From Sapientia aquatica (GTDB taxonomy: Bacteria; Pseudomonadota; Gammaproteobacteria; Burkholderiales; Burkholderiaceae_D), in contig NZ_SMYL01000013.1 in assembly GCF_004358105.1 (NCBI RefSeq), positions 1 to 64,000 on the forward strand: a stretch of 64,000 nucleotides of DNA. The letters are read 5' to 3'. Of the stretch, positions 1-17,152 are shown piece after piece; the stretch's first letter is position 1; each line of letters begins with the position of its first letter. A model generated the notes under the pieces. The model was given only the letters and a program-made list of their open reading frames with translations, was not told the DNA's origin and did no database searches. A program made the translations under genes and the position numbers.

Positions 1-338
1 TGCGTTTCGGCGCAAAGGGAGGAACAAAGACGGTCGACGGCAAAGAGGAAATTACGCCACCTGAATTCGTTCAAAAACTCGCCATCACGAGAACGGTTAT
101 CTCACAATTTAACTTCGAATATTCAGCCGCAAATTATTTCCTAATCAAAGATTGTGAATTCGACCGCGCCAATTTCCGCAAAAGCCGTTACAACAAACTA
201 GAAATCATCAACACCCGAATCAGCCGCCAAATCGACTTTACCGACACCAAAGTGGATGAACAAAACATCGAATTCATTGCTGGCTTCAAAAATCGTATTG
301 AGCTAACTGACGGTTCTAATGTTCGGATTCCGCGCTAG
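1..338 (+). CDS. Beta-helix/pentapeptide-like array protein, copy A (5' end outside window)
   Basis: This is the last ~111 codons of an array protein whose start lies left of the window. Reading in frame from position 3 to the TAG at 336-338 gives a C-terminus almost identical to copies B and D (shared strings such as FNFEYSAANYFLIKDCEF and RYNKLEIINTRISRQIDFTD). Only the first ~30 residues differ. The alternating hydrophobic, Cys and Asn pattern (xFxxCxF) looks like coils of a right-handed beta-helix or degenerate pentapeptide repeats. The small gene at 357 begins 18 nt after the stop. From this fragment alone no function can be assigned. Its position at the head of a tandem array beside T6SS genes suggests an effector-, immunity- or adaptor-related role, which is inference. 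Confidence 0.75.
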   Translation, partial: RFGAKGGTKTVDGKEEITPPEFVQKLAITRTVISQFNFEYSAANYFLIKDCEFDRANFRKSRYNKLEIINTRISRQIDFTDTKVDEQNIEFIAGFKNRIELTDGSNVRIPR

Positions 339-356
339 ACCGGCGGGACACCGAAT

Positions 357-818
357 ATGATTCACCACATCCACGCGCACGCCATCAATCCCCGCCAGCT
401 CACGCTGTTACGCCGCGCACAACTCACGTTCACCAAAGAACACATCGCCAATCTCAAGGCCGCGTTAGCCGCCGGAATCGTTCGCCAGATTGGACGTGCG
501 CCGCGCCGCACGATTCCGCAAGCGTTTTGTGCAGTGAAGCTCAAAAAGCCAGCGGATCGTTGGTTCTGGGCCAACGACATGCGCATCGGTCAAGGCAATC
601 CCGAGACCTGGGTATTTCCAATCGATATCAGCATTAGCGGCACGGAGTTTCAGGAAAAGACTTTTTTAACTCCTAATTCCGCGTTGCGGTTTCATCGCTC
701 AGCGGGCGAACGGGGTGAGGTACCCGATTGGGATTGGCTGGCAGCCACATTTCCAGAGAAGGGATATATCTCAAAGGAGCATGTCATCAATTTGGCCCAA
801 ACAATTCCGAAGAAATAA
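357..818 (+). CDS. Small array protein, copy 1 (unknown family)
   Basis: The 153-residue product has no family I recognise. It begins MIHHIHAHAINPRQLTLLRR, is Arg- and Trp-rich in the middle (DRWFWANDMRIGQG), then has a beta-rich stretch (TWVFPIDISISGTEF) and ends with PDWDWLA followed by a copy-specific tail of ~24 residues. It has no signal peptide and no membrane segment, so it is probably cytoplasmic. A GGCGGGA sequence lies ~9 nt before the ATG. Its stop is 3 nt before the start of beta-helix copy B, so the two are probably translated together. Residues 1-~127 match copy 2 exactly in protein, and the DNA is nearly identical, which implies recent duplication or gene conversion. The GC is clearly higher than in the flanking beta-helix genes. 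A role as partner, adaptor or chaperone of the downstream protein is only a guess. Confidence 0.75.
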   Translation: MIHHIHAHAINPRQLTLLRRAQLTFTKEHIANLKAALAAGIVRQIGRAPRRTIPQAFCAVKLKKPADRWFWANDMRIGQGNPETWVFPIDISISGTEFQEKTFLTPNSALRFHRSAGERGEVPDWDWLAATFPEKGYISKEHVINLAQTIPKK

Positions 819-821
819 CAA

Positions 822-2105
822 ATGCGTAGACGATCATTTATCTTCAATTCATTAATTTTTTTAAGTTCCAATCTATTTGGGAGATGCAATGCAATGAGCA
901 AAAAAACACATATTAGCCAACTAGGTAAAAGTTTCGAATACCTACAAAACCCAGTACTGCGATCACAAGAAATTGGAGAGCAGCTATTAATCATAAAAGA
1001 CGCATTCGTCGCAGATATAACTTTCAGCAAAATTAAGTGGGAAAACATTCAATTTGTGAATTGTGACTTTGCCGGTGGTTACCAAATTAAATTGGATGAG
1101 CTCAATAATTGCCGCTTTATCGAATGTAATTTCGAGGCGATCATCAATTGGGGTACTCAAACTAACGTCCAATTTCTTCGATGTAAAACCTACGGTGGTA
1201 GCAATATTATTGGTGACCGAGGCAGTAAAAACGTTATCCACGAAGAATGTGAATTTATTGGAAAAACGGAAGATCGCAACAACTATGGATTTATCGCGTC
1301 CTACGGAGAGGTCACGTTTAGTCAATGTCATTTAACCTGGTTCAGTCTGATGGGTTCTACCGCTTTAACCATCATAGATTGCAAATTAATTGGGGCTAAA
1401 ATTTTGACGGATAATCTTCCGAATAGCGGACCTGATTTCGACAGGTCATCTATTTATATAAAAGGAAGTGTATTGATAGGTCTAACCAAAATGATCAACG
1501 CCAACCTAACCAACCTCACTATCCTAAATACCCACTATGAATCAATTGATCTGACTAACGCAACTTTCACCGGCGACTTCCGCATGGAGCAATGTCAGGG
1601 CGGGAATACGAAGATACTTGTTAAAGAAAGAGCGCAAAATTTCACCATTAAAAATTGCCACATGCAATCAAATAGTAAAGAAAAATTTAGATTCTATATT
1701 GCATGCTCTGCACAAACCGCATTTATAGATGGATTAAAAATTCAAAATTCAAGCGAAGTTGCGGAGATACGTTTTGGAGCGCAAGGCGGGATAGAAATCG
1801 AAAATGGAGTTGAGGTAATTTATCCACCTGAATTTGCAAGGAAAATCACTATCAGTAATACATCCATCCCACAATTTAACTTCGAATATTCAGCAGCAAA
1901 TTATTTCCTAATCAAAGATTGTGAATTCGACCGCGCCAATTTCCGCAAAAGCCGTTACAACAAACTAGAAATCATCAACACCCGAATCAGCCGCCAAATC
2001 GATTTCACCGACACCAAAGTTGATGAACAAAACATCGAATTCATTGCTGGCTTCAAAAATCGTATTGAGCTAACTGACGGTTCTAATGTTCGGATTCCGC
2101 GCTAG
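822..2105 (+). CDS. Tat-like beta-helix/pentapeptide-like array protein, copy B
   Basis: The product has 427 residues. The N-terminus (MRRRSFIFNSLIFLSS) has an RR-x-F motif followed by a hydrophobic stretch, resembling a Tat signal. A second in-frame ATG at codon 25 (894), preceded by GGGAG, opens the segment MSKKTHISQLGKSFEYL, which is conserved in position in all copies. The rest is a run of ~20-residue coils with xFxNCxF or CRFIECNF spacing, as expected of a right-handed beta-helix or degenerate pentapeptide solenoid. Residues ~30-217 differ from the other copies. From ~1473 to the end the DNA is nearly identical to copy D (4999-5631). It starts 3 nt after small gene 1 and is followed 18 nt later by small gene 2. 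The family is unnamed to me; the T6SS context suggests an effector, immunity or cargo role, unproven. Confidence 0.75.
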   Translation: MRRRSFIFNSLIFLSSNLFGRCNAMSKKTHISQLGKSFEYLQNPVLRSQEIGEQLLIIKDAFVADITFSKIKWENIQFVNCDFAGGYQIKLDELNNCRFIECNFEAIINWGTQTNVQFLRCKTYGGSNIIGDRGSKNVIHEECEFIGKTEDRNNYGFIASYGEVTFSQCHLTWFSLMGSTALTIIDCKLIGAKILTDNLPNSGPDFDRSSIYIKGSVLIGLTKMINANLTNLTILNTHYESIDLTNATFTGDFRMEQCQGGNTKILVKERAQNFTIKNCHMQSNSKEKFRFYIACSAQTAFIDGLKIQNSSEVAEIRFGAQGGIEIENGVEVIYPPEFARKITISNTSIPQFNFEYSAANYFLIKDCEFDRANFRKSRYNKLEIINTRISRQIDFTDTKVDEQNIEFIAGFKNRIELTDGSNVRIPR

Positions 2106-2123
2106 ACCGGCGGGACACCGAAT

Positions 2124-2579
2124 ATGATTCACCACATCCACGCGCACGCCATCAATCCCCGCCAGCTCACGCTGTTACGCCGCGCACAACTCACGTTCAC
2201 CAAAGAACACATCGCCAATCTCAAGGCCGCGTTAGCCGCCGGAATCGTTCGCCAGATTGGACGTGCGCCGCGCCGCACGATTCCGCAAGCGTTTTGTGCA
2301 GTGAAGCTCAAAAAGCCAGCGGATCGTTGGTTCTGGGCCAACGACATGCGCATCGGTCAAGGCAATCCCGAGACATGGGTATTTCCAATCGATATCAGCA
2401 TTAGCGGAACGGAGTTTCAGGAAAAGACTTTTTTAACTCCTAATTCCGCGTTGCGGTTTCATCGTTCAGCAGGCGAACGTGGTGAGGTACCCGATTGGGA
2501 TTGGCTGGCTAAAACGTACAAAGGGAAGGGCTATATCCCAAGTAAAGAGGCGATTTCCGATAAAAAAGGTAACGCATGA
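2124..2579 (+). CDS. Small array protein, copy 2 (unknown family)
   Basis: The 151-residue paralogue of the gene at 357 is identical in protein through PDWDWLA and then carries a different tail (KTYKGKGYIPSKEA...). The stop overlaps the start of copy C by four bases (ATGA at 2576-2579), a classic translational-coupling arrangement. This supports the unit being 'small gene then beta-helix gene'. The divergence sits exactly at the junction with the partner gene, so the tail may be matched to the partner's variable N-terminal half. That matching is inference. Confidence 0.75.
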   Translation: MIHHIHAHAINPRQLTLLRRAQLTFTKEHIANLKAALAAGIVRQIGRAPRRTIPQAFCAVKLKKPADRWFWANDMRIGQGNPETWVFPIDISISGTEFQEKTFLTPNSALRFHRSAGERGEVPDWDWLAKTYKGKGYIPSKEAISDKKGNA

Positions 2580-3835
2580 AATTTAATCGCCGCCAATTTT
2601 TAGCAAAAGCCGCAGCCCTGTTCGGGTTAATGACTCCCCCTTATTTGATTGGAAATACCATGGCAACTAAAAAACACATTCGTCAATTTGGAAAGCAATT
2701 CGACTATTTAATTGATCCCGAATTACGCAAGAAGGAAATTGGCAGCCAATTACAAGTTATCGAAAATGCGGGTTTTTATGACATCCAGTTCGAAACCGAG
2801 TGGAGCAATACCAATTTCGTCAATTGTCAATTTGTCGGCGGATATCAAATCAGCCTTGATCGGCTGGTCAATTGCCGATTTATCGACTGTGAATTCGAGG
2901 GAATTATCGGTTGGGGCGAACAACTCAATGTGCAGTTTCTACGTTGTAAAACGTATGGCGTTAGCAACATCATCGGTAATCGACGAAGTAAAAACGTTGT
3001 ACACGATGAATGTGAATTTATTGGTAAAGGAGACGACAAAAACCACTACGGATTCATCGGCAATTATGGCGAGGTTACCTTCAATAAATGCAAAGGTTCT
3101 TGGTATGCGGTCATCGGTGGGAAGAAGCTGACCCTCAATAATTGTAATTTTATGGGATTACAAATTAGCACAGATAGCTTCGCCAACAGCGGCAGTAAGT
3201 TTGAAAAGTCTGATGTGGTTCTAAATCAGTGCCGTCTTTTTGGGCTTACCGACATGATAACTGCCGATTTTGCAAGTTTCACCATGCTCGACACCGCGTA
3301 CGAATCGATCGATCTTACGGAAGCCACCTTTACCGGCGACTTCCACATGGAGCAATGTCAGGGCGGGAATACGAAGATAATTGTTAAAGGCGGAGCACAA
3401 AATTTCACCATTAAAAATTGCCGCATGCAATCAAATGGCAAAGAAAAGTTTCGATTTTTCGTAGGCTGCTCAGCACAAAATGCGGTAATTGATGGACTAA
3501 AAATCGTCAATACCAACGAAGAAGCTGAAATGCAATTAGGGGCAAAAGGTGGCAAGGAAATTATCAATGGCGTCGAAAAAATCTACCCACCTCGATTAGT
3601 GAAAAAAATTACTATTGCTAACACCAATATCGGTCGATTTAATTTCGAGTATTCAGCCGCAAATTATTTCCTAATCAAAAACTGCGAATTCGACAGCGCC
3701 AATTTCCGCAAAAGCCGTTACAACAAACTAGAAATCATCAACACCCGAATCAGCCGCCAAATCGACTTACCGACACCAAAGTGGATGAACAAAACATCGA
3801 ATTCATTGCTGGCTTCAAAAATCGTATTGAGCTAA
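2576..3835 (+). CDS. Tat-like beta-helix/pentapeptide-like array protein, copy C, frameshifted at the 3' end
   Basis: The product has 419 residues. The N-terminus NRRQFLAKAAALFG is the best Tat motif of the array (RR-x-F-L-x-K). An aligned second ATG lies at 2660 (MATKKHIRQFGKQFDYL). The body has the same solenoid spacing as B and D with its own sequence over residues ~30-220, and the shared block MEQCQGGNTKI near residue 260. Around 3767-3770 one T is missing relative to copies A, B and D (ATCGACTTACC against ATCGACTTTACC). The last ~35 residues are therefore replaced by a short unrelated tail ending at TAA 3833-3835. Restoring the base would extend the frame to a TAG at 3865-3867. Most of the fold would survive, so the protein may still be made; alternatively the copy is at an early stage of decay. 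Confidence 0.7.
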   Translation: MKFNRRQFLAKAAALFGLMTPPYLIGNTMATKKHIRQFGKQFDYLIDPELRKKEIGSQLQVIENAGFYDIQFETEWSNTNFVNCQFVGGYQISLDRLVNCRFIDCEFEGIIGWGEQLNVQFLRCKTYGVSNIIGNRRSKNVVHDECEFIGKGDDKNHYGFIGNYGEVTFNKCKGSWYAVIGGKKLTLNNCNFMGLQISTDSFANSGSKFEKSDVVLNQCRLFGLTDMITADFASFTMLDTAYESIDLTEATFTGDFHMEQCQGGNTKIIVKGGAQNFTIKNCRMQSNGKEKFRFFVGCSAQNAVIDGLKIVNTNEEAEMQLGAKGGKEIINGVEKIYPPRLVKKITIANTNIGRFNFEYSAANYFLIKNCEFDSANFRKSRYNKLEIINTRISRQIDLPTPKWMNKTSNSLLASKIVLS

Positions 3836-3886
3836 CCGACGGCTCTAATGTTCGACTTCCGCGTTAGACAGATGGGACTACCAAAT

Positions 3887-4345
3887 ATGCGTCACTACAT
3901 CCACGCGCACGCCATCAATCCCCGCCAGCTCACGCTGTTACGCCGCGCGCAACTCACGTTTGCCAAAGAACACATCGCCAATCTCAAGGCCGCGTTAGTT
4001 GCTGGAATCGTTCGCCAGATTGGTGGTGCGCCACGCCGCACGATTGCGCAAGCCTTTTGTGCGGTCAATCTCAAAAAGCCAGCAGATCATTGGTTCTGGG
4101 CCAACGACATGCGTATAGGTCAAGGCAATCCCGAGACATGGGTATTTCCAATCGATATCAGCATTAGTGGCACGGAGTTTCAGGAAAGAACCTTTTTAAC
4201 GCCTAATTCCGCGTTGCGGTTTCATCGTTCAGCGGGCGAACGGGGTGAGGTGCCGGATTGGGATTGGCTGGCTAAAACATACAAGGAAAAGGGCTATATC
4301 TCTAAATCCCGTGCACTCAATAAAGACGAGGATAAAGAAACATGA
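3887..4345 (+). CDS. Small array protein, copy 3 (unknown family)
   Basis: The 152-residue third paralogue starts MRHYIHAHAINPRQLTLLRR. The start at 3887 matches copies 1 and 2; an upstream in-frame ATG at 3848 lies inside the old coding end of copy C and is less likely. It carries scattered substitutions relative to copies 1 and 2 (for example QLTFAKEH and RQIGGAPRR), so it is older or less recently homogenised. It has its own tail after PDWDWLA (KTYKEKGYISKSRALNK...). Its stop overlaps the ATG of copy D by four bases (ATGA), implying coupled translation with that gene. Confidence 0.75.
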   Translation: MRHYIHAHAINPRQLTLLRRAQLTFAKEHIANLKAALVAGIVRQIGGAPRRTIAQAFCAVNLKKPADHWFWANDMRIGQGNPETWVFPIDISISGTEFQERTFLTPNSALRFHRSAGERGEVPDWDWLAKTYKEKGYISKSRALNKDEDKET

Positions 4346-5649
4346 AACGCCGCACTTTTGTAAAAAACATCGCTGCATTGTTTGCGCTGGCGAATCCATT
4401 CACATTCATAAAGGCCTTTACCATGAACAAAACAAATATCCGTAAATTTGGAAAAACCTTCGACTACTTAAAAGATCCTGACCTGCGCACCAAAGAAATT
4501 GGCGATCAACTAATTCGCGTAAACAATGCCGACGTCAGTGGGGCTAGTTTCCAAAAAGTCGTTTGGCGAAATATTGAATTTGTGAATTGCGATTTCCAGA
4601 GTGGGTATGACATTAAATTAAGCAGGCTAGAAAATTGCCGTTTTATTGACTGTCAATTTCAAGGAATCATCAATTGGGGAGCCGCTACTAACACTCGTTT
4701 TGTACGCTGCAAGTTTTACGGTGAGAGCAATATTATCGGCAGCAGTGGCACAAAAAATCTTGTGCACGAACAATGCGAATTTATCAATCCTAAAGGCGGC
4801 AGAAATCATTTGGGCGCGATTGGTGCGTATGGCGAAGTTGAGTTCATCAAGTGTAAAGCAGAATTTTTCGACTTCCTTGGAACAATACAACTCAAACTTT
4901 CTGACTGCCAATTAAAAGACTGCACTATTTCAACCGATTCTGAAGCCAATACTGGTCCTCATTTTAAGAGAGCAGAAATTGTTATTAATCAATGCATATT
5001 GATAGGTTTAACCGACATGATCAACGCCGATCTAACCAACCTCACCATCCTCAATACCCACTATGAATCAATTGATCTGACTAACGCCACCTTTACCGGC
5101 GACTTCCACATGGAGCAATGTCAGGGCGGGAATACGAAGATACTTGTTAAAGGCGGAGCACAAAATTTCACCATTAAAAATTGCCACATGCAATCAAATA
5201 GTAAAGAAAAATTTAGATTCTATATTGCATGCTCTGCACAAACCGCATTTATAGATGGATTAAAAATTCAAAATTCAAGCGAAGTTGCGGAGATACGTTT
5301 TGGAGCGCAAGGCGGGATAGAAATCGAAAATGGAGTTGAGGTAATTTATCCACCTGAATTTGCAAGGAAAATCACTATCAGTAATACATCCATCCCACAA
5401 TTTAACTTCGAATATTCAGCCGCAAATTATTTCCTAATCAAAGATTGCGAATTCGACCGCGCCAATTTCCGCAAAAGCCGTTACAACAAACTAGAAATCA
5501 TCAACACCCGAATCAGCCGCCAAATCGACTTTACCGAAACCAAAGTTGATGAACAAAACATCGAATTCATTGCTGGCTTCAAAAATCGTATTGAGCTAAC
5601 CGACGGCTCTAATGTTCGACTTCCTCCGAAAATCCCACCGAATCAATAA
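4342..5649 (+). CDS. Tat-like beta-helix/pentapeptide-like array protein, copy D (last of array)
   Basis: The product has 435 residues. It begins MKRRTFVKNIAALFALANPF, a Tat-type motif (RR-x-F-V-K) with a hydrophobic core. The aligned second ATG is at 4423 (MNKTNIRKFGKTFDYL). Residues ~30-220 are copy-specific; from ~4999 the DNA is nearly identical to copy B. The C-terminus differs from the other copies (RLPPKIPPNQ instead of RIPR), and no small gene follows, so this marks the right end of the array. The PAAR gene starts 189 bp downstream; those 189 bp contain no gene I can support. The product is presumably exported, or held in the cytoplasm if translation starts at the second ATG. Confidence 0.75.
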   Translation: MKRRTFVKNIAALFALANPFTFIKAFTMNKTNIRKFGKTFDYLKDPDLRTKEIGDQLIRVNNADVSGASFQKVVWRNIEFVNCDFQSGYDIKLSRLENCRFIDCQFQGIINWGAATNTRFVRCKFYGESNIIGSSGTKNLVHEQCEFINPKGGRNHLGAIGAYGEVEFIKCKAEFFDFLGTIQLKLSDCQLKDCTISTDSEANTGPHFKRAEIVINQCILIGLTDMINADLTNLTILNTHYESIDLTNATFTGDFHMEQCQGGNTKILVKGGAQNFTIKNCHMQSNSKEKFRFYIACSAQTAFIDGLKIQNSSEVAEIRFGAQGGIEIENGVEVIYPPEFARKITISNTSIPQFNFEYSAANYFLIKDCEFDRANFRKSRYNKLEIINTRISRQIDFTETKVDEQNIEFIAGFKNRIELTDGSNVRLPPKIPPNQ

Positions 5650-5838: not shown

Positions 5839-6099
5839 ATGACTAAGAAGATTATTTTGGTCGGTGATTCGACCAGCCATGAGGGGTCAGTTATTTCTGG
5901 AAGTCTTACCCACACAATTGGTGGTAAAGCGATAGCTCGACAAGGTGATTTGGTGAGTTGCCCAAAACACGGTGACAACAAAATTATAGAAGGTTATGCG
6001 AATTATTTAATTGATGGAATTCCAGTGGGTTTGGATGGTCACTCCACTGAGTGCGGTGCGGTGCTTATTGGAAGTACTTCGGCTTACGTGGGTGATTAG
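5839..6099 (+). CDS. PAAR-domain T6SS spike-tip protein
   Basis: The 86-residue product is a minimal PAAR protein. Diagnostic features are the early GDSTSHEGSV stretch, GxAIARQGDLVSCPKHG with its Cys-Pro-x-His zinc-ligand type motif, and a later STECG...LIGST segment supplying a further Cys. PAAR proteins cap the VgrG spike of the T6SS and recruit or carry effectors. This one has no extra domain, so any effector would have to bind non-covalently. An AAGGA Shine-Dalgarno sequence lies upstream of the ATG. It sits between the mosaic array and tssL, the usual position for a spike/cargo gene, and gives the main reason to link the array to secretion. Confidence 0.9.
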   Translation: MTKKIILVGDSTSHEGSVISGSLTHTIGGKAIARQGDLVSCPKHGDNKIIEGYANYLIDGIPVGLDGHSTECGAVLIGSTSAYVGD

Positions 6100-6121
6100 T
6101 TTTTTGATAGAGGATATGTTG

Positions 6122-7555
6122 ATGTATTACGCAGCAGGAAATTTGAGGCCACCTTCTCCTGAAACCGGGGACGAGGATTTTGAACAAGGGTCGGCAACAC
6201 AAGATACCGCGATTATCAGCGATGTTGATGGACAGCATTTCATCCACTCGCACAGAGCGACGATTGATACCATCGTTGCGGCAGGCAGTGAAACAAGCGA
6301 AGAACGCACCGATCGCTTTACGGCGATATCAGCGGCTCGAAATCCGCTGTTGGAGGCTGCGAAGCCATTATTATTAGCTATTGCGACGATGCCCAAACAG
6401 TTGAATGATCCAATCCAAATCGAAGGATTTCGTGGACTGCTGAAAAGGGAAATCCGAAGCTTTCAGGATATTTGCGCGAAAGCTAATATTCGACGTGAAC
6501 ATCTTATTACTGCCAGTTTTTGCCTGTGTACTGCGTTGGACGAGGCTGCCAGCAGCACCTACTGGGGTGGTAGTCAAAACTTAGGCGACGTTGGAATATG
6601 GGCGTCCGGCTTATTATCAGAAAGCTTCCATCAGGATAGTCATGGCGGTAAAAAATTCTTTTTATTGGTCGCACGTTTATCGAGTAATCCTACCGAACAT
6701 GGCGATTTGCTGGAGGTCATGTATCACATTTTAAGTTTGGGATTTGAAGGACAGTATCACAATGATCCAAACGGCCAACGTCAGTTAGAAGCAACTAGAT
6801 ATCACTTATTTACTCAGTTGAGCAATATCCACGGGGCGTTCAATCGCGAACTGTCGCCAAATTGGGTGGGAGTACCACATCAAAAAAGTATCTTTATGCG
6901 CAGCCTACCTGTTTGGGCTTTAGCTCTCGTCTGTGGTCTTGGACTGCTAATTATGTTTGGCTGGTACCAATATCAACTTTCGTCACTCGCGCGCCAAGTC
7001 ACCAACAATATTATGGCGATTGAAAAGATGGCTCCACCGCCACAGGCAATTAAACAAGTAGATCTCGCAACCCTTCTAAAAGATGAAATCAAACAAGGCC
7101 TGGTCACGGTTGTTGAAAAAGGTGATCGTACTGAAGTTATTTTCAAGGGCGATGACATGTTTGTACTCGGGCAGTCAAGCGTCAATAAAAAAATGATTCC
7201 ATTATTAAATAAGGTAGCCGCCGAGATCGCCAAAGTCGCTGGCAATATTCAAGTTATCGGCCATAGTGATAACCAACCGATTAACACGCCACAATTCCCG
7301 AACAACCAAGCTTTGTCATTAGAACGCGCTGTTTTGGTTGCAGACGTCCTGCAGTCCGCAGGCGTCGCAGCAGGCCGAATGGAGATAAGTGGTCGCGGGG
7401 ACAGTTCTCCCATAGAAAGTAACTCTACCCCAACCGGAAGGGCGAAAAATCGCCGCGTCGAAATCGTACTTGTAGGATCTTCCGCTCCAAAATCAACATT
7501 ACCTTATCCTACCTCGACTGAAGCGCCCACTACTAAACCTTCAACTAAGAATTAA
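6122..7555 (+). CDS. tssL: T6SS membrane-complex protein TssL, DotU-OmpA fusion
   Basis: The 477-residue product combines a cytoplasmic DotU/TssL domain (residues ~70-255), one transmembrane helix (~261-282, PVWALALVCGLGLLIMFGWY) and a C-terminal OmpA-like peptidoglycan-binding domain (~375-465, with IGHSDNQP and GRAKNRRVEIVL). This is the 'extended' TssL form that anchors the membrane complex TssJLM to the cell wall through its own OmpA domain. I chose the ATG at 6122 because AGAGG lies 8 nt before it; the ATG at 6116 is too close to that site. It is 12 bp upstream of tssM and in the same orientation as the rest of the operon. Confidence 0.92.
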   Translation: MYYAAGNLRPPSPETGDEDFEQGSATQDTAIISDVDGQHFIHSHRATIDTIVAAGSETSEERTDRFTAISAARNPLLEAAKPLLLAIATMPKQLNDPIQIEGFRGLLKREIRSFQDICAKANIRREHLITASFCLCTALDEAASSTYWGGSQNLGDVGIWASGLLSESFHQDSHGGKKFFLLVARLSSNPTEHGDLLEVMYHILSLGFEGQYHNDPNGQRQLEATRYHLFTQLSNIHGAFNRELSPNWVGVPHQKSIFMRSLPVWALALVCGLGLLIMFGWYQYQLSSLARQVTNNIMAIEKMAPPPQAIKQVDLATLLKDEIKQGLVTVVEKGDRTEVIFKGDDMFVLGQSSVNKKMIPLLNKVAAEIAKVAGNIQVIGHSDNQPINTPQFPNNQALSLERAVLVADVLQSAGVAAGRMEISGRGDSSPIESNSTPTGRAKNRRVEIVLVGSSAPKSTLPYPTSTEAPTTKPSTKN

Positions 7556-7567
7556 TCGGTTAGTTCC

Positions 7568-10500
7568 ATGCAAAAATTTCTCACTATTTTATTTTCACGC
7601 TATACGTTAGCGATCGTAATGATCGTATTAATTGGCGCTTTCATCTGGTTCGTTGGACCACTTTTAGCATTTGGCGGAATGCGTCCGCTTGAGTCAGTCG
7701 GCCTTCGCGTGACGATCTTTATATTGATTTTGGTGTTTGTCCTCTGTTTACTCTGGTCTATATCGATATTAGCAATCGGAGTTGCTTTACTTTGCCTGTT
7801 AATTTGGCATGCTGGGCCACTATTAGCGATAGGCGCTATGCAGCCGCTGGCGCCTATCTGGTCGCGCATTTCAGTGATCAGCGTCATTGTGCTGATTTAC
7901 GCGATCTACGGACTTTATTTGTTGCTAAAAGCAGCACAACAGAATCAACACATACTGGACAGATTTTTCGGAAAAAATAAGAACGACTCTGAGGAGATCG
8001 ATAAGGAGACTCTTACGTCTTTACGCAAGATTATTCAAAGTTCATTAAACCAACTAAAAACACTACAAATCACCACAACCGGCCTGCGTAAATTGTTGGA
8101 GGGCAAGCGGTATTTGTACGAGTTACCTTGGTATCTAGTGATTGGACATTCCAACTCGGGTAAAACTACCGCGTTAATTAATTCGGGCTTGAAGTTTCCG
8201 CTTGGTGCCCAAATGCAATCCGCGGCGAGCGCACTGGCCAAAAACGAGCATAACACCGCCAACTGCGATTGGTGGTTTAGCCATGAGGCTGTATTAATTG
8301 ATACAGCAGGGCGCTACACCGAACAAGAGCCTAGCCCCAAAAATAAAGCAGAATGGATGGGCCTTCTGGGTCTATTACGGCAGTACCGCACAAGAACACC
8401 GATCAATGGAGCAATTGTCGTTGTCAGTATTGGTGAATTATTGGCGAAAAACGATGCTGAGAATATGAAACACGCCAGCCAACTAAGAGAACGCTTACTT
8501 GAATTACGCCGTGTATTAGGCGTTCGTTTTCCAGTGTATGTCGTCATTACCAAGATGGATCTGTTGGCTGGTTTCAGCGAATATTTTCAGTCGCAAACAA
8601 CGGATACGCGATCACAAGTCTGGGGTTTTACGCTGCCTTACACAGCGAAAAAACAAAGCCTAAAGAAGCAGTCAGATAATGAAAATTCGGCAAACTCGCT
8701 GGAGAAAGCAATCTCGGTTGAATTCACGGCATTAAAACAAGTCCTAGATAACGGATTACTAGTTCGCTTACAAGAGGGGCTCGATAACGATCTACGCCAA
8801 TCGCTATATCAATTACCACAGGAGTTTGCTGGTTTAATACCGCGCTTAACTCGATTTGTGGACAGTGTTTTTCAAGACTCTAGATACGATAATACTGAAT
8901 TGCATAATATGTTACGCGGCGTTTATTTCACCAGCGCTGCTCAGGGCAATGTGCACGAGGTATCCGATAGACGAACCCTATGGCAACGGTTTTTAAATGC
9001 GATTAACGCGAAGTCCGAGGAAGTAAATGATTCGGAGCCAAATAGTGTTATGTCGACTCAATCCCAATCAACTTCTACAAAAGAATCCAACGAACAGGGT
9101 GTAGGACAAAGTTCACGTAAAGCGATTTTAGGAAACCGGAGCTATTTTTTACGTGATCTGTTCACCAAAATAATCGTACCTGAGGCGCATTTAGCACGAC
9201 CAAACTTAATATGGGAATTTCGATTCAGAGTCATACGTTTGGTCGCTTACTCCATTGTCATCGTTCTTTCTGTGTGGCTTGCTGCAGGCTTCTCGGTATC
9301 ACACGAAAACAATAGTAAATACTTGAACAGCGTAGCGGGCAAAACTGTGTCGCTTACAAAACAGGTTTCAACGTTGTTTGCCGCTAACGGGGAGGAAAAA
9401 TTACAAGCGATTCCCGATGTATTAACTGCCGCGCAAGAATTGCCAACCTATACTGGACTTAGTTTAGAAAGTCCATCTACAAGTTTTCGCTATGGCTTAT
9501 ACAGCGGACCAACAGTCATAGCGGCATCCGATAAAGTCTATGCTTATTTACAAGATCACTTCTTGCTGCCACAAATTATCCGTCGCATGGAATCGGTTCT
9601 GGAGCTTGCGGTGCGTGACAAGGATAGCAAAACGGCGTACGACACCTTACGAGTCTATCTACAGTTGCACGATCCAAAACACTACAACGCGGAAGATCTT
9701 AAAACATGGATGCAGAAAGACCTAAGCCAACCTGAAAGTCTGGCTTTTTTTGGCGGTCGTACCGCCATGACAGCTCATATTACTCAGTTGTTTTCGGCTG
9801 AGCGAGTAGTCCAATCTCCCTTCGTCAAAAACGAAAAACTGGTGCAGCAAACCCGACAGTTCTTGGATGGGGCATCGTCCACGGAACGCTTATACGAACG
9901 CGCTAAATCAGCTATGCAACTTGAGGCGCCTCAGGAGTTCACTCTACTGCGGGCAGTCGGGCCACAAGCGGGGACAGTTTTTGCCCGCGCGTCCGAGCAG
10001 CCCATCGGGAAGGGCATAGATGGATTATTCACCTTTGATGGTTACCACAATTTATTTAGCAAGCGATTACCCGAATTCCTTGCAAAAGCGCAGATTGATG
10101 ATGCTTGGGTGATGGGCTATTCCACACCTGATGGCACAAAGTTTGCAGGAAAAAAAGCAAGCGCATCATTGGACTCAGCAATCGACGATGACGAGTTGAC
10201 TCGCGAAATTAGGCGTCAATACCTCAACGAATACGCACAACGCTGGACATTTTTTTTAAATGACATCCGTACCGTCACAGGCGCTAATTTAGCCTTTGAT
10301 TTAACGGTTTTGCGCACATTTGCGGCACCCGACTCGCCGTTATCTAGGCTAGCTCGGGCGGCGGCCAAGGAAACAACTCTGTCGCGCTCATTGAATACAA
10401 AGCCTGAGCTCGACAAGAATTTTATCGATAAGGCGAGCGAACAACTGACCAAAAAAAGCCGCGATGTATTAGGTCTAAGTTCAAAAGAGCGCCAAGAACG

Positions 10501-11650
10501 AGAACTCGTTGACAATCGATTTGCCGCATTGCGTGAAATTGTCACAGGACAAGCCGACGTTAATTCAGAACAATCTGGACAAACCCCGCTAGGGGAAAAA
10601 CTCGGCCTTGAAAATATTATTGGCTTACTTAATGAATATTACACTTTGCTCGTTGTAGCTGACGCCGCCCTCAACACAAATAGCTTGCCCCCGGGAAGTA
10701 TTGAAGCAGGGATGAAGTTAAAACTAGAAGGCGATAAATTGCCAGCGCCATTTAAACAAGTGCTGAGCGCTCTAGCCGACAGTGGATCACAAAAAATAGG
10801 AGACGGTGCAGCGGCTATATATCGCACTCAAGCCCAACAACAAGTTAACCAAATCAATGCTGTGCTGGCATCCCAAGTAACTGACGTTTGCAAACGTAGC
10901 ATTGAAGGCCGATATCCTTTTTCAAAAACCAGTCAAGATGTTTCCATCGATGACTTTAATCGCTTGTTCGCCTCTGGTGGGACGGCCGATGATTTTTTTC
11001 AAAAATACTTAGCTCCATACGTCGAAACGAGCTCGCGACCTTGGAAATATAAACTTCCCTCTCCTGTAAAAACATCTTTATCAAATAGTCAGTCTTCATC
11101 TAACCCTAACGCAGTAGGGCTATTAGCGAATCCCGGTCCAACCCTAGACGGTGAATTGATTGCGTTACTGACAAAACAAGGACCGAACCCGGACATATTC
11201 GCTCAGATTGCGGAGATCCGCGAGTCTTTTTTCCGTGGTGCTGCTGGGAAAACAGTGGCTTGGAAGGTAGATATGAAAATCGCAGAGATTGATCCCAGCA
11301 TCGTTGAACTCATCATCAACATTGATGGGCAAGTTACGCGCTATTCACACGGTCCGATACAAGCCCAAACAATTAATTGGCCAGGCTCTCGCGGGGGAAC
11401 CATAGCCGAACTAACAGCTCTGCCACGAATTAAACCAGATACGTCAAGTATCGTTACTAGCGGTGCATGGGCATTATTGCGCTTACTAGAGCGCGGAAAA
11501 ATAACGACCTCAAATACCGGGGGAAAAGCAGAAGTTGAATTTAATTTGGACGGCCGCAAAGTTGTACTGGACTTTAATAGCGGCAGCTTTTCCAACCCAT
11601 TAACGTCAAATTTATTCGCTAATTTCCATTGTCCAGGGAGTCGACCATGA
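7568..11650 (+). CDS. tssM: T6SS membrane-complex protein TssM (IcmF)
   Basis: The product has 1360 residues, longer than typical TssM (~1100-1300). It forms the inner-membrane scaffold and trans-periplasmic arm of the T6SS. A cytoplasmic nucleotide-binding region has Walker A GHSNSGKTT (~192-200), DTAGRY (~245-250) and TKMD (~328-331). The transmembrane segment before the periplasmic part is at ~555-577. The N-terminus is unusual: the GPLLA-x-G-x-MxPL hairpin occurs twice (WFVGPLLAFGGMRPL at ~27-41 and IWHAGPLLAIGAMQPL at ~78-93), giving about four N-terminal membrane segments instead of two. An even number keeps the ATPase-like domain in the cytoplasm. Its stop overlaps the tagF start (ATGA at 11647-11650). 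Confidence 0.93.
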   Translation: MQKFLTILFSRYTLAIVMIVLIGAFIWFVGPLLAFGGMRPLESVGLRVTIFILILVFVLCLLWSISILAIGVALLCLLIWHAGPLLAIGAMQPLAPIWSRISVISVIVLIYAIYGLYLLLKAAQQNQHILDRFFGKNKNDSEEIDKETLTSLRKIIQSSLNQLKTLQITTTGLRKLLEGKRYLYELPWYLVIGHSNSGKTTALINSGLKFPLGAQMQSAASALAKNEHNTANCDWWFSHEAVLIDTAGRYTEQEPSPKNKAEWMGLLGLLRQYRTRTPINGAIVVVSIGELLAKNDAENMKHASQLRERLLELRRVLGVRFPVYVVITKMDLLAGFSEYFQSQTTDTRSQVWGFTLPYTAKKQSLKKQSDNENSANSLEKAISVEFTALKQVLDNGLLVRLQEGLDNDLRQSLYQLPQEFAGLIPRLTRFVDSVFQDSRYDNTELHNMLRGVYFTSAAQGNVHEVSDRRTLWQRFLNAINAKSEEVNDSEPNSVMSTQSQSTSTKESNEQGVGQSSRKAILGNRSYFLRDLFTKIIVPEAHLARPNLIWEFRFRVIRLVAYSIVIVLSVWLAAGFSVSHENNSKYLNSVAGKTVSLTKQVSTLFAANGEEKLQAIPDVLTAAQELPTYTGLSLESPSTSFRYGLYSGPTVIAASDKVYAYLQDHFLLPQIIRRMESVLELAVRDKDSKTAYDTLRVYLQLHDPKHYNAEDLKTWMQKDLSQPESLAFFGGRTAMTAHITQLFSAERVVQSPFVKNEKLVQQTRQFLDGASSTERLYERAKSAMQLEAPQEFTLLRAVGPQAGTVFARASEQPIGKGIDGLFTFDGYHNLFSKRLPEFLAKAQIDDAWVMGYSTPDGTKFAGKKASASLDSAIDDDELTREIRRQYLNEYAQRWTFFLNDIRTVTGANLAFDLTVLRTFAAPDSPLSRLARAAAKETTLSRSLNTKPELDKNFIDKASEQLTKKSRDVLGLSSKERQERELVDNRFAALREIVTGQADVNSEQSGQTPLGEKLGLENIIGLLNEYYTLLVVADAALNTNSLPPGSIEAGMKLKLEGDKLPAPFKQVLSALADSGSQKIGDGAAAIYRTQAQQQVNQINAVLASQVTDVCKRSIEGRYPFSKTSQDVSIDDFNRLFASGGTADDFFQKYLAPYVETSSRPWKYKLPSPVKTSLSNSQSSSNPNAVGLLANPGPTLDGELIALLTKQGPNPDIFAQIAEIRESFFRGAAGKTVAWKVDMKIAEIDPSIVELIINIDGQVTRYSHGPIQAQTINWPGSRGGTIAELTALPRIKPDTSSIVTSGAWALLRLLERGKITTSNTGGKAEVEFNLDGRKVVLDFNSGSFSNPLTSNLFANFHCPGSRP

Positions 11651-12516
11651 CTTTTTTGACACCCAAGTTTCGTCAGAATTTTTTCGTCAGCTCCCCTGCA
11701 CTGTGGGGAAAATTACCAAGTCAAAATGAATTCATTTGCCATAACCTCCCCGAATACCAGCAGGAGGAATTACACAATTGGATTATTTTACAACGGCGAC
11801 CTACTAAGAGAATGACAGCAAACCGCGCGATACAGGTCTCAAAAAAATCGAACTCTACCAACCTACTTTGGCACCATTTAAATCCACCAAGCGACGCTTC
11901 CAATCGGTCATCTCAACCTGAAATAGGACGCGACATGGTTCCGTGGTGCTTCGTTCTCCCTCCGTCAAGCTTGGCGTTCGCACCGAGCGAGTACGTCATT
12001 GGGGTCTGGATAGCCTCATACGACAAGCAAAATAATCCTTATCCCTTAGTAATGATACAGACTGCATCGCTCAGCTGGATCGAACAATATTTTTCTCGAC
12101 ACGCTGAACTTCCTCGCGACTGGTTATTCTCAGCATCGAGAATTCTGGCAAAGATCGTCTATACCGACAAGGAGCAAGTATTAAATCCAAACAATTGTAT
12201 AAATCGGACGGATAGCTTGGCGAGACTCGTAGTCCAGATTGATGAACTTTGGAGTCTTAGCAAACCCAACTGGCGCAATTTGTTCGGACTAAGTTATGGC
12301 GCAATCGATAGTAACCTAGCGCAAAAAATAATAGGTGAACATCATGAAGAAGATCCGGCGCACCACCTGCAGGGGGTGCGCTATTTACCTTGGTCAGATT
12401 GGCCTAAAAGACTAACTGCTACGGACAATAATGCACGACCCGAGCCAGCATTCTGGCAGCAGGATTTAAATGGTCGATTCATAGCCGCGGCATCAAAACT
12501 AATGGGGTCAAATTGA
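11647..12516 (+). CDS. tagF: T6SS-associated protein TagF
   Basis: The 289-residue product matches the TagF (DUF2094/ImpM) family by its N-terminus: ALWGKLPSQNEFICHNLP, then a helix with EELHNWI, and VPWCFVLPPSSLAF. TagF proteins are accessory T6SS factors; in Pseudomonas TagF acts as a post-translational repressor of assembly. I chose the ATG at 11647 because it overlaps the tssM stop by four bases and has AGGGAG a few bases upstream. A frame extending further upstream would start at a non-ATG codon inside tssM. No PppA or PpkA partner is seen in this window. Confidence 0.88.
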   Translation: MTFLTPKFRQNFFVSSPALWGKLPSQNEFICHNLPEYQQEELHNWIILQRRPTKRMTANRAIQVSKKSNSTNLLWHHLNPPSDASNRSSQPEIGRDMVPWCFVLPPSSLAFAPSEYVIGVWIASYDKQNNPYPLVMIQTASLSWIEQYFSRHAELPRDWLFSASRILAKIVYTDKEQVLNPNNCINRTDSLARLVVQIDELWSLSKPNWRNLFGLSYGAIDSNLAQKIIGEHHEEDPAHHLQGVRYLPWSDWPKRLTATDNNARPEPAFWQQDLNGRFIAAASKLMGSN

Positions 12517-13599: not shown

Positions 13600-14154
13600 A
13601 TGAAAAAACTAGGCAACAGTAACAAACAAAAGTTTTATGAAGACGTCAGCTTGGGACGCTCCAGTTCGCACTTACTACCAACACTACTTGACCGTCTGCG
13701 TGATGATGCTCCTTTCAGAAAAACTGAAGCACCTAGCGAATACGCCGTGTCGCGTAAACAGATGGGTGAAATCATTCGACGAGACTTAGCCTTTCTCCTC
13801 AATACGTCAAATACTGATGACCTAATCAATCGTTCGATATACCCGGAAGCAGCAGCTTCGACCATCAATTTTGGCATTCCTCCGCTAGCTGGAGGTTATT
13901 TATCTGAGAATAAATGGGTAACTATCGAAAGACTCATTCGTCGGGCCATATCAGATTTTGAACCGCGAGTTATACCAGAGTCATTGCAGGTCATACCACT
14001 CATCAAAGACACAAGTACGCACAATTACAACGTTTTATTGTTCGAAATTCATGGTCTGATTCATATGAAACCGTATCCCCTAGCTTTCCTAATTCAAAGT
14101 TCCGTAGATATTGAAAATGATCGGTTCACGATCGTAGGCAATCGCTCAAGTTAG
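13600..14154 (+). CDS. tssE: T6SS baseplate protein TssE
   Basis: The 184-residue product is of the gp25-like baseplate family. It contains REQM-like early residues (SRKQMGEIIRRDLAFLLNT), SIYPEAAASTINFGIPPL and a C-terminal LLFEIHGLIHMKPYPLAFLI strand region typical of gp25/TssE. TssE joins TssF, TssG and TssK in the baseplate wedge from which the contractile sheath is polymerised. It starts 3 nt after the FHA-like gene and is followed by tssF after 50 bp, consistent with one operon. The N-terminal ~40 residues before the gp25 core are a little longer than usual. Confidence 0.88.
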   Translation: MKKLGNSNKQKFYEDVSLGRSSSHLLPTLLDRLRDDAPFRKTEAPSEYAVSRKQMGEIIRRDLAFLLNTSNTDDLINRSIYPEAAASTINFGIPPLAGGYLSENKWVTIERLIRRAISDFEPRVIPESLQVIPLIKDTSTHNYNVLLFEIHGLIHMKPYPLAFLIQSSVDIENDRFTIVGNRSS

Positions 14155-14204
14155 CGGATTTTTTCGATACTAGGAACAAACTATAAAAACTTCTGAAAGA
14201 CAAT

Positions 14205-16082
14205 ATGGATCCACTTTTACTCGAGTATTACAACCGCGAACTAATTTACATGCGCGAAATGGCCAACGAATTTGCGCATATGCATCCCAAAATCGCTAAG
14301 CGCTTGGGCATACATGGTATCGAAGTAGCTGATCCGTATGTCGAGCGCTTAATAGAAGCATTTTCATTTATATCAGCCCGAACGCAGATCAAACTAGATG
14401 CCGAGTTTCCACGTTTTACCCAGCGCTTATTAGAAGTAATTTATCCCAATTATATTTGCCCAACTCCCTCAATGGCGGTGGCACAACTGCACCCAAATCC
14501 ACAAGAGGGAGATTTACGTAACGGCTTCGTGGTACCAAAACAAACAGCATTCCACGCTGCTGTTGCTCAAGGTGAGCAAACAGCGTGCGAATTCCGCAGC
14601 AGTCAAGATGTCACTTTATGGCCGATAGAAATCGTCGATGCAAAACTAACTGGCGCACCACCCGATCTTCCCAATATAGAGCGATATTTGCCAGAGCACA
14701 TCGAAGTGCGGGGTGCATTGCGCTTAACTCTGCGGTTGACAGAGGCACTCAACTTTTCTGATTTAAACGGCTTAGATACGCTGCCGATTTATTTGTGCGG
14801 GGATGAGGTAATTGCCTCGCATATATTCGAGCTATTGCATACCTCCGTTATTGCCACCGTTACGCCGATTGCAGAGGAGTTGATGCGTCCACATATTGTT
14901 CTACAAGACGCATTAGTTCATGAAGGATTAGAGCCAAACCAAAGTTTATTGCCACTTAATTGGAACACATCCCATGGCAATAACCTTTTACATGAATACT
15001 TTTCCTGTCCTAGCCGGTTCTACTTTTTTTCACTGACTCAACTCAAAGACGGTTTAAAACGAATTTACAACCAACAGATTGAAATTATTGTGCTCTTGGA
15101 TAGATCGCCCATGAATTTAATTAGTCATGTAGACCACAATCATTTTGCCTTGTACTGCACTCCGGTGATCAACCTATTTCCAGGAAGGGCTGATCGGGTC
15201 GAAGTTAACTCTGCTGAGACAGAGTTTCATGTCGTGCCCAATCGTTCTAAACCAATTGACTTTGAGATTTTTTCTCTTACTGAGGTCAGCGCACAAGCAA
15301 CCGAATCATCTGCGAACGTGATTTTTCGGCCAATGTTTCAAACATTGAATCAGGATCAAAACAACTACGGACGTTATTACTCACTGCGCCGGGAAAGACG
15401 TCTAACTTCCGACTCAGCGCGTAAGTATGGAACTAGGTCGCCCTACATGGGTACCGAAGTATTTATTTCTATCGTTGACCAACACGAAGCTCCGTACAGC
15501 GAAGATATTAAATATTTATCGATTCAAGCGATGCTGACCAACCGCGATCTAGCTACGATGGTGCCTCGAAACGGTGTATCGGATTTAACCACTTCCGATT
15601 CAATTCCAGTCGCTAGCGTTGGCCTAATTCGACCTCCTAGTGCTGCTAAAGCGCCTTACGCTGAGCGGGAACATGCTTGGCGTTTAATACGTCAACTAGG
15701 GTTTAATTACTTACCCTTAACAGACATGGACGGTAAAGATGGTGGACGAGCTCTGCAAGATTTGCTGCGCCTATTTGTGACTAGCGAAGATTCTGAGCAA
15801 CAAAGGCAGATTCAGAGTCTTATACGTTCAGACATCATACCAATTACACGGCGTCTGCCGGGGAAAGGTCCGTTAATTTATGGGCGTGGAGTCAAATGCC
15901 AATTGACCGTTGATGAGACTGGCTTTTCCGGCACTAGTCCGTATCTATTCGGACTAATTCTTGAACACTGGCTGGCTCATCATGTTTCTATTAATGTATT
16001 CACCCAAACCGAACTTCTAACAATCCAACGAGGCAAGATTGCCACTTGGCCAGTGCGCATGGGGGGACGTGGGATCATATAA
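14205..16082 (+). CDS. tssF: T6SS baseplate protein TssF
   Basis: The 625-residue product has the normal TssF (VasA/ImpG) length. Its N-terminus is diagnostic: MDPLLLEYYNRELIYMREM, then FAHMHPKIAKRLG and a VERLIEAFSFISAR segment. The C-terminal GxGVKCQLTVDE and LEHWLAHHVSINVFTQTEL segments also match the family. TssF forms the main body of the baseplate wedge (two copies per TssG). The TAA stop overlaps the tssG start by one base (TAATG at 16080-16084), indicating tightly coupled expression of the two subunits. Confidence 0.95.
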   Translation: MDPLLLEYYNRELIYMREMANEFAHMHPKIAKRLGIHGIEVADPYVERLIEAFSFISARTQIKLDAEFPRFTQRLLEVIYPNYICPTPSMAVAQLHPNPQEGDLRNGFVVPKQTAFHAAVAQGEQTACEFRSSQDVTLWPIEIVDAKLTGAPPDLPNIERYLPEHIEVRGALRLTLRLTEALNFSDLNGLDTLPIYLCGDEVIASHIFELLHTSVIATVTPIAEELMRPHIVLQDALVHEGLEPNQSLLPLNWNTSHGNNLLHEYFSCPSRFYFFSLTQLKDGLKRIYNQQIEIIVLLDRSPMNLISHVDHNHFALYCTPVINLFPGRADRVEVNSAETEFHVVPNRSKPIDFEIFSLTEVSAQATESSANVIFRPMFQTLNQDQNNYGRYYSLRRERRLTSDSARKYGTRSPYMGTEVFISIVDQHEAPYSEDIKYLSIQAMLTNRDLATMVPRNGVSDLTTSDSIPVASVGLIRPPSAAKAPYAEREHAWRLIRQLGFNYLPLTDMDGKDGGRALQDLLRLFVTSEDSEQQRQIQSLIRSDIIPITRRLPGKGPLIYGRGVKCQLTVDETGFSGTSPYLFGLILEHWLAHHVSINVFTQTELLTIQRGKIATWPVRMGGRGII

Positions 16083-17152
16083 TGAAAAAATCTTTAGATC
16101 TTAACCGCTCTGCCGCCATCGCCCAAAAACACTTTAATTACCAACTGCTAACGGACCAGCCATGGAAATATAGTTTTACTTCGTTACTGCGATTCATTGC
16201 AGCGCGGTGTCGTCGAACTATGCCTCCCATTGGCAGCGCATTCCGTCCACAAGATGAACCCTTTCGGCTCGGTCAACAACCTGCATTGACATTTGCGCCG
16301 CGTGAAATTGCCCACATTTTAGTGCGGGAGTCACGATTGCACATTAATCTGTTTAGTCTGGGGATGCTTGGTCCAAATGGACCGCTCCCAATACACTTTA
16401 CTGAAATTGCAAAGGATAGACTCGATAATCGGCATGATTCAACACTGGTGAATTTTTTAAATATTTTTCATCATCGATCAATGGTGCTGCAATACAGAGC
16501 GTGGGCGCAATCACAATCGGCCGCAGGTTTAGATCGCAGTGAGGAGGAAAATTTTTCCCGGTATATTAGTTGGCTCACAGGAAATGATCCTTGGGATATT
16601 CCTTTATCTCCGTTGCCAGCCCATGCCCGCCTAGCAACAGCACCGCACCTCGCCAAGCAATCTCGCAACCCTTTTGGATTGTGCGCAACATTGGGACAAT
16701 ACTTTGACGTCCCAGTTGATTTGGAAGAAAACATTCTCCATTGGATTTCCATATCCCCGGATGAGCACACCCGCCTAGGAATATCTAGCGAGGCGTCCAC
16801 TTTAAGTAATGGTGCCCTACTCGGTGACATGGTGCCCGACAAGCAGCATAAATTCCGACTCGTGATTGGCCCATTAAGCCTCGAAGAATATTTACGATTC
16901 ACTCCGAGTGGAGAGAATCTCTCGATTTTAGTCGAATGGGTTCGTGCTTTTATTGGGCTTGAATTCGCATGGGATATCGAGTTAAAAATCAAGCCTGAAT
17001 CAGCTCCCGCAGCACGAATCGGTGATAACGAACGCTTGGGTTGGTCGACTTGGCTTAGCAATGATCGTTTGAATGAACCTATTACTGGCATGATTTTCGA
17101 ACCCGAAACCTATGTCGCAAACGAGAGAGAAAAACATGTCAACAAGAATTAA
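16082..17152 (+). CDS. tssG: T6SS baseplate protein TssG
   Basis: The 356-residue product is of the TssG (VasB/ImpH) family. Supporting segments are FTSLLRFIAARC, FRLGQQPALTFAPREI, the family's typical GMLGPNGPLPIHFTE motif and FHHRSMVLQYRAWAQSQ. It bridges TssF, TssE and TssK in the baseplate. The start at 16082 (MKKSLDLNRS) directly follows the tssF stop; an upstream start would lie inside tssF. The last 17 bases overlap the beginning of tssA. Confidence 0.95.
   Translation: MKKSLDLNRSAAIAQKHFNYQLLTDQPWKYSFTSLLRFIAARCRRTMPPIGSAFRPQDEPFRLGQQPALTFAPREIAHILVRESRLHINLFSLGMLGPNGPLPIHFTEIAKDRLDNRHDSTLVNFLNIFHHRSMVLQYRAWAQSQSAAGLDRSEEENFSRYISWLTGNDPWDIPLSPLPAHARLATAPHLAKQSRNPFGLCATLGQYFDVPVDLEENILHWISISPDEHTRLGISSEASTLSNGALLGDMVPDKQHKFRLVIGPLSLEEYLRFTPSGENLSILVEWVRAFIGLEFAWDIELKIKPESAPAARIGDNERLGWSTWLSNDRLNEPITGMIFEPETYVANEREKHVNKN

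Follow-up and report, generated by a model that had tools for sequence, protein, structure and literature searches.

The window analysed here, 64,000 nucleotides (nt) of Sapientia aquatica, runs from base 1 of contig C4 (NZ_SMYL01000013.1) and opens on a tandem gene array beside genes of a type VI secretion system (T6SS). Three small open reading frames (ORFs) of ~150 amino acids (aa) are interleaved with four β-helix genes of ~425 aa, followed by a PAAR gene, tssL and tssM, all on the + strand. An earlier note on this DNA had described this alternation, and it is real: units are spaced 1767, 1763 and 1763 nt (~1.76 kb) from start to start, with the ATGA overlaps at 2576 and 4342 and the 3-nt gap at 818/822 as the note gave them, so that β-helix genes b1, b2 and b3 overlap or nearly abut the preceding small ORFs. 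The array may extend beyond the visible part. We read it, from its anatomy, as probably a homotypic T6SS immunity-gene array that has grown by duplication and recombination, the small ORFs being stubs of an effector tail.

The array begins with the 3' end (3..338, 111 aa) of a β-helix/pentapeptide gene interrupted by the contig start. Stub 1 (357..818) fuses effector residues ~642-656 to ~958-1088 by an internal deletion, whose scar (411..422) merges both direct-repeat copies of the intact effector gene, and leads into b1 (822..2105, 427 aa). Stub 2 (2124..2579) has the scar common to all stubs at 2178-2189 and overlaps b2 (2576..3835, 419 aa), which is frameshifted near its 3' end, placing its last ~26 residues out of family; the missing family C-terminus can be traced further in another frame (3766-3864), where it overlaps the mechanical start of the stub 3 ORF. 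That start is at 3848; we take a later ATG for stub 3 (3887..4345, scar at 3941-3952), which overlaps b3 (4342..5649, 435 aa). Predicted internal promoters (6 versus 12.6) and terminators (3 versus 8.3) are fewer in the array than in shuffled sequence, giving no sign that the units are transcribed separately.

Small ORFs and the effector tail

As a query, the small ORF matched no Pfam or NCBIfam family. Searching its own genome, stub 2 matched (87% over stub residues 11-149) the C-terminus of a 1,091-aa protein encoded on contig C33 (L015:6266-9541, a 1,095-codon open frame), the complete effector gene considered below; this match inside an effector gene rules out the small ORF as an independent family. 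A second short match elsewhere in the C33 frame is weak as protein (E 0.02) and spans 52 nt of DNA at 94-96%. The C33 gene holds a 13-nt exact direct repeat, its copies 903 nt apart and in frame; three 12-mers recur in the gene, two of them belonging to this repeat (one of those found thrice). In all three stubs the sequence is what a deletion from one copy to the other would leave, with one base differing from the repeat in stubs 1 and 2 and none in stub 3. Aligned in this way, each small ORF is a stub left of the C-terminus of the putative effector, and all share one 903-nt in-frame internal deletion. As the same scar is present in every stub, the deletion most simply occurred before the units were duplicated. 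The earlier note had coupled a small gene of unknown family to each β-helix gene, a view that does not hold: the supposed partner is an effector 3' end, truncated and with an internal deletion.

Relatives were compared at 25 fetched effector loci, 22 of them distinct (L051, L052 and L057 duplicate L041, L043 and L047). Genes downstream were counted at 19, which leaves out L056 and L058 (contig edge) and the remote L065. Seven of these 19 carry two or three tandem immunity genes, the role we assign to the β-helix genes below (L044, L046, L050 with its second one split, L054, L061, L062 and L063). Effector tails lie between immunity genes at two of the seven, L050 and L061; no stub was found at the other five, and the claim of a coupled unit fails there too. 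At L050 the stub is 461 aa long and ~90% identical in nucleotides to the effector gene of that locus; it adjoins the immunity gene that is broken into two frames, and two of the five catalytic metallophosphoesterase motifs survive in it. L061 has a 65-aa stub with none of the five and a 32-aa trace to which no ORF corresponds, and each of the three stubs in the window likewise has none. Such variation in length, together with the decay, speaks against a single conserved small protein.

The stubs could nonetheless be functional small proteins under selection (decoys binding the immunity protein, co-factors or chaperones), making the unit a true two-gene module. The reading frame is open in all three copies and translationally coupled to the immunity gene, and the 110-codon core is under apparent purifying constraint, with dN/dS (nonsynonymous over synonymous divergence) of 0-0.09 between stubs and at most 0.12 against the C33 effector. 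Between stubs 1 and 2 there are 5 synonymous and 0 nonsynonymous substitutions, between stubs 1 and 3 there are 20 and 7; the changes private to stub 1 (2) and to stub 2 (2) are all synonymous. A ratio near 1, which the earlier note had named as evidence against its small gene, is thus not what we observe, and the low values could stem from common descent with intact effectors or from exchange with them. Site patterns (18 private differences on stub 3, 3-4 on the C33 effector) suggest such exchange for stubs 1 and 2, fitting it without proving it. Against a selected small protein stand the five stubless multi-immunity loci, the irregular lengths elsewhere and the position of the stub start in the effector model, within the C-terminal β-rich region and past several of its strands. 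We regard a functional small protein as unlikely; the stub may instead persist as a coupling leader of the immunity gene.

The effector and the β-helix proteins

The sole Pfam match of the C33 effector is PF00149 Metallophos (E 8e-7, above cut-off). It carries the calcineurin-like motifs GHLTDVH, GDLIDFN, GNHE, THFT and GHSHR (pattern D-x-H, G-D, G-N-H-E, H, G-H-x-H), with ligand positions invariant in eight aligned sequences (the C33 protein and seven relatives). By these motifs, the large protein is a calcineurin-like metallophosphoesterase. An AlphaFold model of a Collimonas relative (built on 16 sequences; predicted local distance difference test score (pLDDT) 69) was matched by Foldseek to purple acid phosphatase (best, E 8e-3), Lmo2642 (0.1) and GpdQ (0.2), lower matches being mostly unrelated. 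The effector resembles these enzymes in having all five metal-binding motifs; unlike them, its domain is embedded in a ~1,000-aa, DUF4123-linked protein that has further regions of its own at both termini. Sequence searches of the PDB with the effector and with its profile gave no match, nor did a tblastn search of a plasmid collection with the effector. HalA, the Hailong anti-phage effector, was rejected as an identity (NCBIfam NF051894, best 39.1 bits against a cut-off of 250). In the family sample, the effector occurs in 8 of 294 genomes and the β-helix gene in 7, all among those 8; the eighth (G230) has a divergent β-helix copy detected by profile. Four other genomes of the same genus as the window have neither gene, which leaves no close strain by which to order events.

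Within the fetched DNA, vgrG (upstream of the effector) is present at 16 of the 22 distinct loci and DUF4123 also at 16, the latter confirmed by Pfam in all three cases tested. The pairs are therefore not found mostly away from T6SS loci. The T6SS link and the expanding effector/immunity array that the earlier note proposed hold up: relatives of the β-helix gene stand behind a mostly VgrG/DUF4123-linked effector, and genes for PAAR, TssL and TssM follow in the window. We infer that the large protein is a T6SS effector, with toxicity and secretion as predictions.

At each of the 19 distinct loci whose downstream DNA could be read, a β-helix gene lies directly 3' of the effector (over two frames at L059). 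Scores against Pentapeptide_3 (PF13576, cut-off 27 bits) are 32.6 for b1 and 40.1 for b3, with b2 below at 19.1. Two adjacent arginines are invariant in 22 aligned β-helix proteins, 21 of which show an RR signal pattern like that of twin-arginine translocation (Tat), as do b1, b2 and b3; a lipobox-like pattern occurs in nine of the 22 and in none of b1, b2 and b3. The AlphaFold model of b3 is a right-handed β-helix (pLDDT 83, predicted TM-score 0.83). The structure-based search suggested by the earlier note did return matches for b3, to phage tailspikes first (E 1.6e-4, TM 0.34) and to pentapeptide proteins from E 1.7e-3; all are weak to modest. In common with the pentapeptide-repeat proteins MfpA, QnrB1 and AlbG, the fold is a right-handed β-helix of related type, all sequence and fold matches being weak. 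Unlike these, the window proteins are longer, less regular and equipped with an export signal, and b2 falls below the Pfam cut-off. A folded, exported protein encoded beside a gene that resembles a toxin gene would suit a role in periplasmic immunity, and an immunity protein is probably what the β-helix protein is, rather than the adaptor or cargo that the earlier note had offered as an option, given its place directly behind the effector gene.

Mosaic divergence and growth of the array

Divergence along the units is strongly uneven. Over the stub core, between units and against the C33 effector, synonymous divergence (dS) is 0.07-0.35 and nonsynonymous divergence (dN) 0-0.03. Over the last ~23-25 stub codons and immunity codons 1-250, synonymous sites are mostly saturated and dN reaches 0.1-0.8. 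These stretches make up the variable segments, with approximate limits of 741..1572 in unit 1 (the last ~25 codons of stub 1 plus ~250 N-terminal codons of b1), 2508..3326 in unit 2 and 4271..5092 in unit 3. In the C-terminal ~40% of the β-helix genes, b1 and b3 are close (dS 0-0.24) and b2 less so, with saturation in codons 301-350. Units that have a scar in common and are nonetheless saturated at synonymous sites would point to replacement by divergent alleles, not to recent positive selection.

We compared these values with five genomes of one genus, Collimonas, whose effectors fall into type A (G174, G117 and G225) and type B (G152 and G028). The first 300 effector residues are 88-97% identical across both types; from residue 480, identity is 85-96% within A, 80% within B and 56-60% between. 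Immunity residues 40-250 track effector type (87-95% within A, 88% within B, 48-49% between). Effector type is not reflected further along the immunity protein, in its C-terminal half: that of G152 is 80-86% like type A and 41% like the first copy of G028. In G028, a type B genome, the second immunity gene resembles type A (81-90% over residues 40-250), making it a putative extra immunity gene against an effector type that G028 does not make. Over the same residues, b1, b2 and b3 share 54-56% mutual identity, near the between-type and far from the within-type values; the closest relative of b1 is the partial C33 immunity protein (72-73%). No close donor allele for the immunity genes of the window was found in the family sample and the four same-genus genomes.

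The association extends across 16 loci (L054, with a broken effector, L055, L056, L058, L059, L065 and the window itself left out). Controlled for the effector N-terminus, the partial correlation with the effector C-terminus is 0.79 for the immunity N-terminal half versus 0.57 for the C-terminal half, and 0.71 versus 0.50 without the three most remote loci (13). Specificity may thus lie in the N-terminal half of the immunity protein, as a matter of degree. Tandem immunity genes of Variovorax (L061 and L063) vary over their first ~240 residues and then share 78-100% identity; the pattern is less sharp in Pseudacidovorax (L050) and not clear in L054 and L044. At L054 (Cupriavidus sp. 2SB, L054:7770-10919) the effector is in two open frames beside three intact tandem immunity genes, as if immunity had been kept during effector decay.

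Taken together, the anatomy suggests the following course. The effector would be loaded via DUF4123 onto VgrG/PAAR and would hydrolyse a phosphoester in the prey periplasm, where the cognate Tat-exported β-helix protein would neutralise it. A truncated effector tail and its immunity gene would have been duplicated in tandem, after which recombination with divergent effector-immunity alleles would have replaced the central segment (tail end plus immunity N-terminal half), leaving about three immunity types in the present array. Thanks to the extra copies, a cell would be shielded from sibling strains with other effector alleles, the stub being retained mainly as carrier of the ribosome-binding region and of translational coupling, and for the homology it offers to recombination. 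More tentatively, and with less confidence than we place in the array reading itself, the constant stub and the constant immunity C-terminal half could act as paired homology arms on either side of the variable segment, making the array a recombination-fed library of immunity alleles that could take up each new allele without giving up the old. If so, the variable-N/constant-C pattern in Variovorax and Pseudacidovorax would mark a recurring mechanism of the effector family.

Several observations weigh against the immunity-array reading. The stub core is nearly invariant while its immunity partners vary, and a pure relic would not show the constraint seen there unless converted from intact effectors. 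The immunity C-terminal half also correlates with the effector C-terminus (the 0.57 and 0.50 above), and the 3' end of b2 is frameshifted. Fold support is weak for the effector (best E 8e-3) and modest for the immunity model (best E 1.6e-4, TM 0.34). Five of the 22 loci (L048, L054, L059, L060 and L064) have neither vgrG nor DUF4123 nearby. Finally, the effector belonging to the C4 array is unassembled; the full-length one lies on C33, and the pairing of that contig with C6 or C4 is presumptive.

In the orphan C-terminal (CT)-immunity modules of Rhs, contact-dependent inhibition (CDI) and MafB systems, tails with diverse toxin domains alternate with immunity genes 3' of a full toxin gene. The array might by analogy be a reservoir of orphan toxin-tip/immunity cassettes able to switch the toxin by recombination. 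It has the same alternation of tail and immunity downstream of a full toxin gene, with conserved homology in the stub core and a variable 3' end, and the longer L050 stub retains two of the five motifs. Unlike Rhs/CDI modules, the stubs of the window are alike and have neither a toxin domain of their own nor any catalytic motif; their cores are near-identical and only the last ~25 residues vary. With such cores, recombination could swap the immunity gene and hardly the toxin, and we think a toxin reservoir improbable.

The same low probability attaches to a role of the β-helix proteins in T6SS loading or in the spike, as accessory proteins comparable to the pentapeptide proteins found in DUF2169 clusters. 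Their pentapeptide/β-helix fold would suit this, pentapeptide T6SS accessory proteins exist (to judge from a reference title in PMC11481896), and the remote L065 locus combines DUF2169 with a Tox-PAAR-like gene. Yet the RR pattern in 21 of 22 proteins suggests export and not cytoplasmic loading, and allelic divergence tied to effector type, with an extra non-matching copy, is immunity-like.

Orphan immunity arrays are already known. In Vibrio cholerae, Kirchberger et al. 2017 (PMC5361080) describe T6SS orphan immunity gene arrays built, as proposed there, by effector displacement with retention of the ancestral immunity gene; in one case the effector 3' end had been shifted back, and the authors argue against duplication. 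Like those arrays, ours stacks immunity genes 3' of a T6SS effector locus in a recombination mosaic; unlike them as described there, it consists of one family instead of mixed immunity types, its stubs share a deletion scar, and stub end and immunity N-terminal half vary most. The common scar in all three stubs points to tandem duplication. At the Serratia Rhs1 locus, orphan immunity genes lie behind the cognate one and protection was shown experimentally (PMC10539506); in the sections consulted that locus has Rhs tips and NADase toxins and no repeated stub unit is described, in contrast to the repeated stubs here. A Ralstonia atlas reports 13 aux types with putative arrays of immunity genes or with orphan ones (PMC11481896). 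Two features of T6SS orphan immunity arrays recur in this family: in the window several homologues lie 3' of an effector-immunity pair, given the likely join of C44 to C4 described below, and in G028 an extra gene matches the immunity of another strain's effector type.

The effector-immunity family was not among the matches listed in open-licence T6SS literature, metallophosphoesterase and metallophosphatase terms included; of the T6SS papers mentioning metallophosphatase, two deal with an enzyme of PhoD type and with a gene in a phage region, neither of them an effector, the remainder being judged by title and abstract start. Nor did we find in the open-licence literature a paper on tandem or duplicated T6SS immunity anatomy with stubs; a homotypic array with a shared deletion scar and half-gene mosaic was thus not found described. 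If our reading is right, the metallophosphoesterase and its Tat-exported β-helix immunity protein form an effector class not found described, spread over Burkholderiales and relatives and, remotely, Desulfoluna. The common scar and the mosaic limits would make the order of events in the growth of an immunity array testable, and with such an array a single cell might withstand several variants of the toxin that a rival injects, a protection that we predict.

Genome context and neighbouring genes

The T6SS genes are split between contigs. At the end of contig C44 lie a clpV-like gene (so called from its context), tssB, tssC, hcp, tssJ, tssK, vgrG, DUF4123 and the start of a second effector gene, whose first 142 residues are present and show 94% identity to the C33 copy; C4, with PAAR and tssL, M, E, F, G and A, complements this half. 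The joined order vgrG-DUF4123-effector-β-helix-tssL-tssM is seen at L053, with its PAAR upstream instead. On C33, the effector gene leads without a gap into a β-helix gene running off the contig, and neither vgrG nor DUF4123 was seen in the fetched flanks. It is likely that C44, a gap and C4 form the T6SS cluster and that C33 and C6 form a second effector/immunity copy; the joins have to be inferred because repeats broke the assembly. The end of C33 (L015:6266-10000) and the start of C6 (L016:1-338) hold this second pair, with the only complete effector found in the genome; C6 continues with an amidohydrolase-like gene.

That part of the array is itself an assembly artefact of chimeric or collapsed repeats is very improbable: the first 127 nt of the window are identical to the start of C6, C33 contains an exact copy of the last 127 nt of C44 and repeats did break the assembly, but three units with distinct N-terminal halves lie contiguously in one contig, and tandem immunity genes recur in independent genomes (the seven loci listed above).

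Downstream of b3, the PAAR spike-tip gene (5839..6099) is followed by tssL (DotU + OmpA, 6011..7555, uncertain start codon), tssM (IcmF, 7568..11650) and a tagF-like gene (11629..12516; Pfam TagF_N above cut-off, NCBIfam TIGR03373 below). tssE (gp25), tssF, tssG and a tssA-like gene (ImpA_N) complete this half of the cluster (13600..18167). The only other PAAR-motif match in the genome (G000:C22:192090-192308, in a 191-codon open frame) lies away from the cluster. In the Collimonas group, a gene for a ~204-aa membrane-protein-like product stands between immunity gene and PAAR (L042:12375-12983, L043:7725-8339 and L045:11322-11936). In Desulfoluna butyratoxydans (L065:4531-11364), DUF2169 lies close to consecutive Tox-PAAR-like, metallophosphoesterase and pentapeptide genes; the pentapeptide protein downstream of the effector has no match to the β-helix profile, and the locus may be a remote version of the effector-immunity pair with another loading system.

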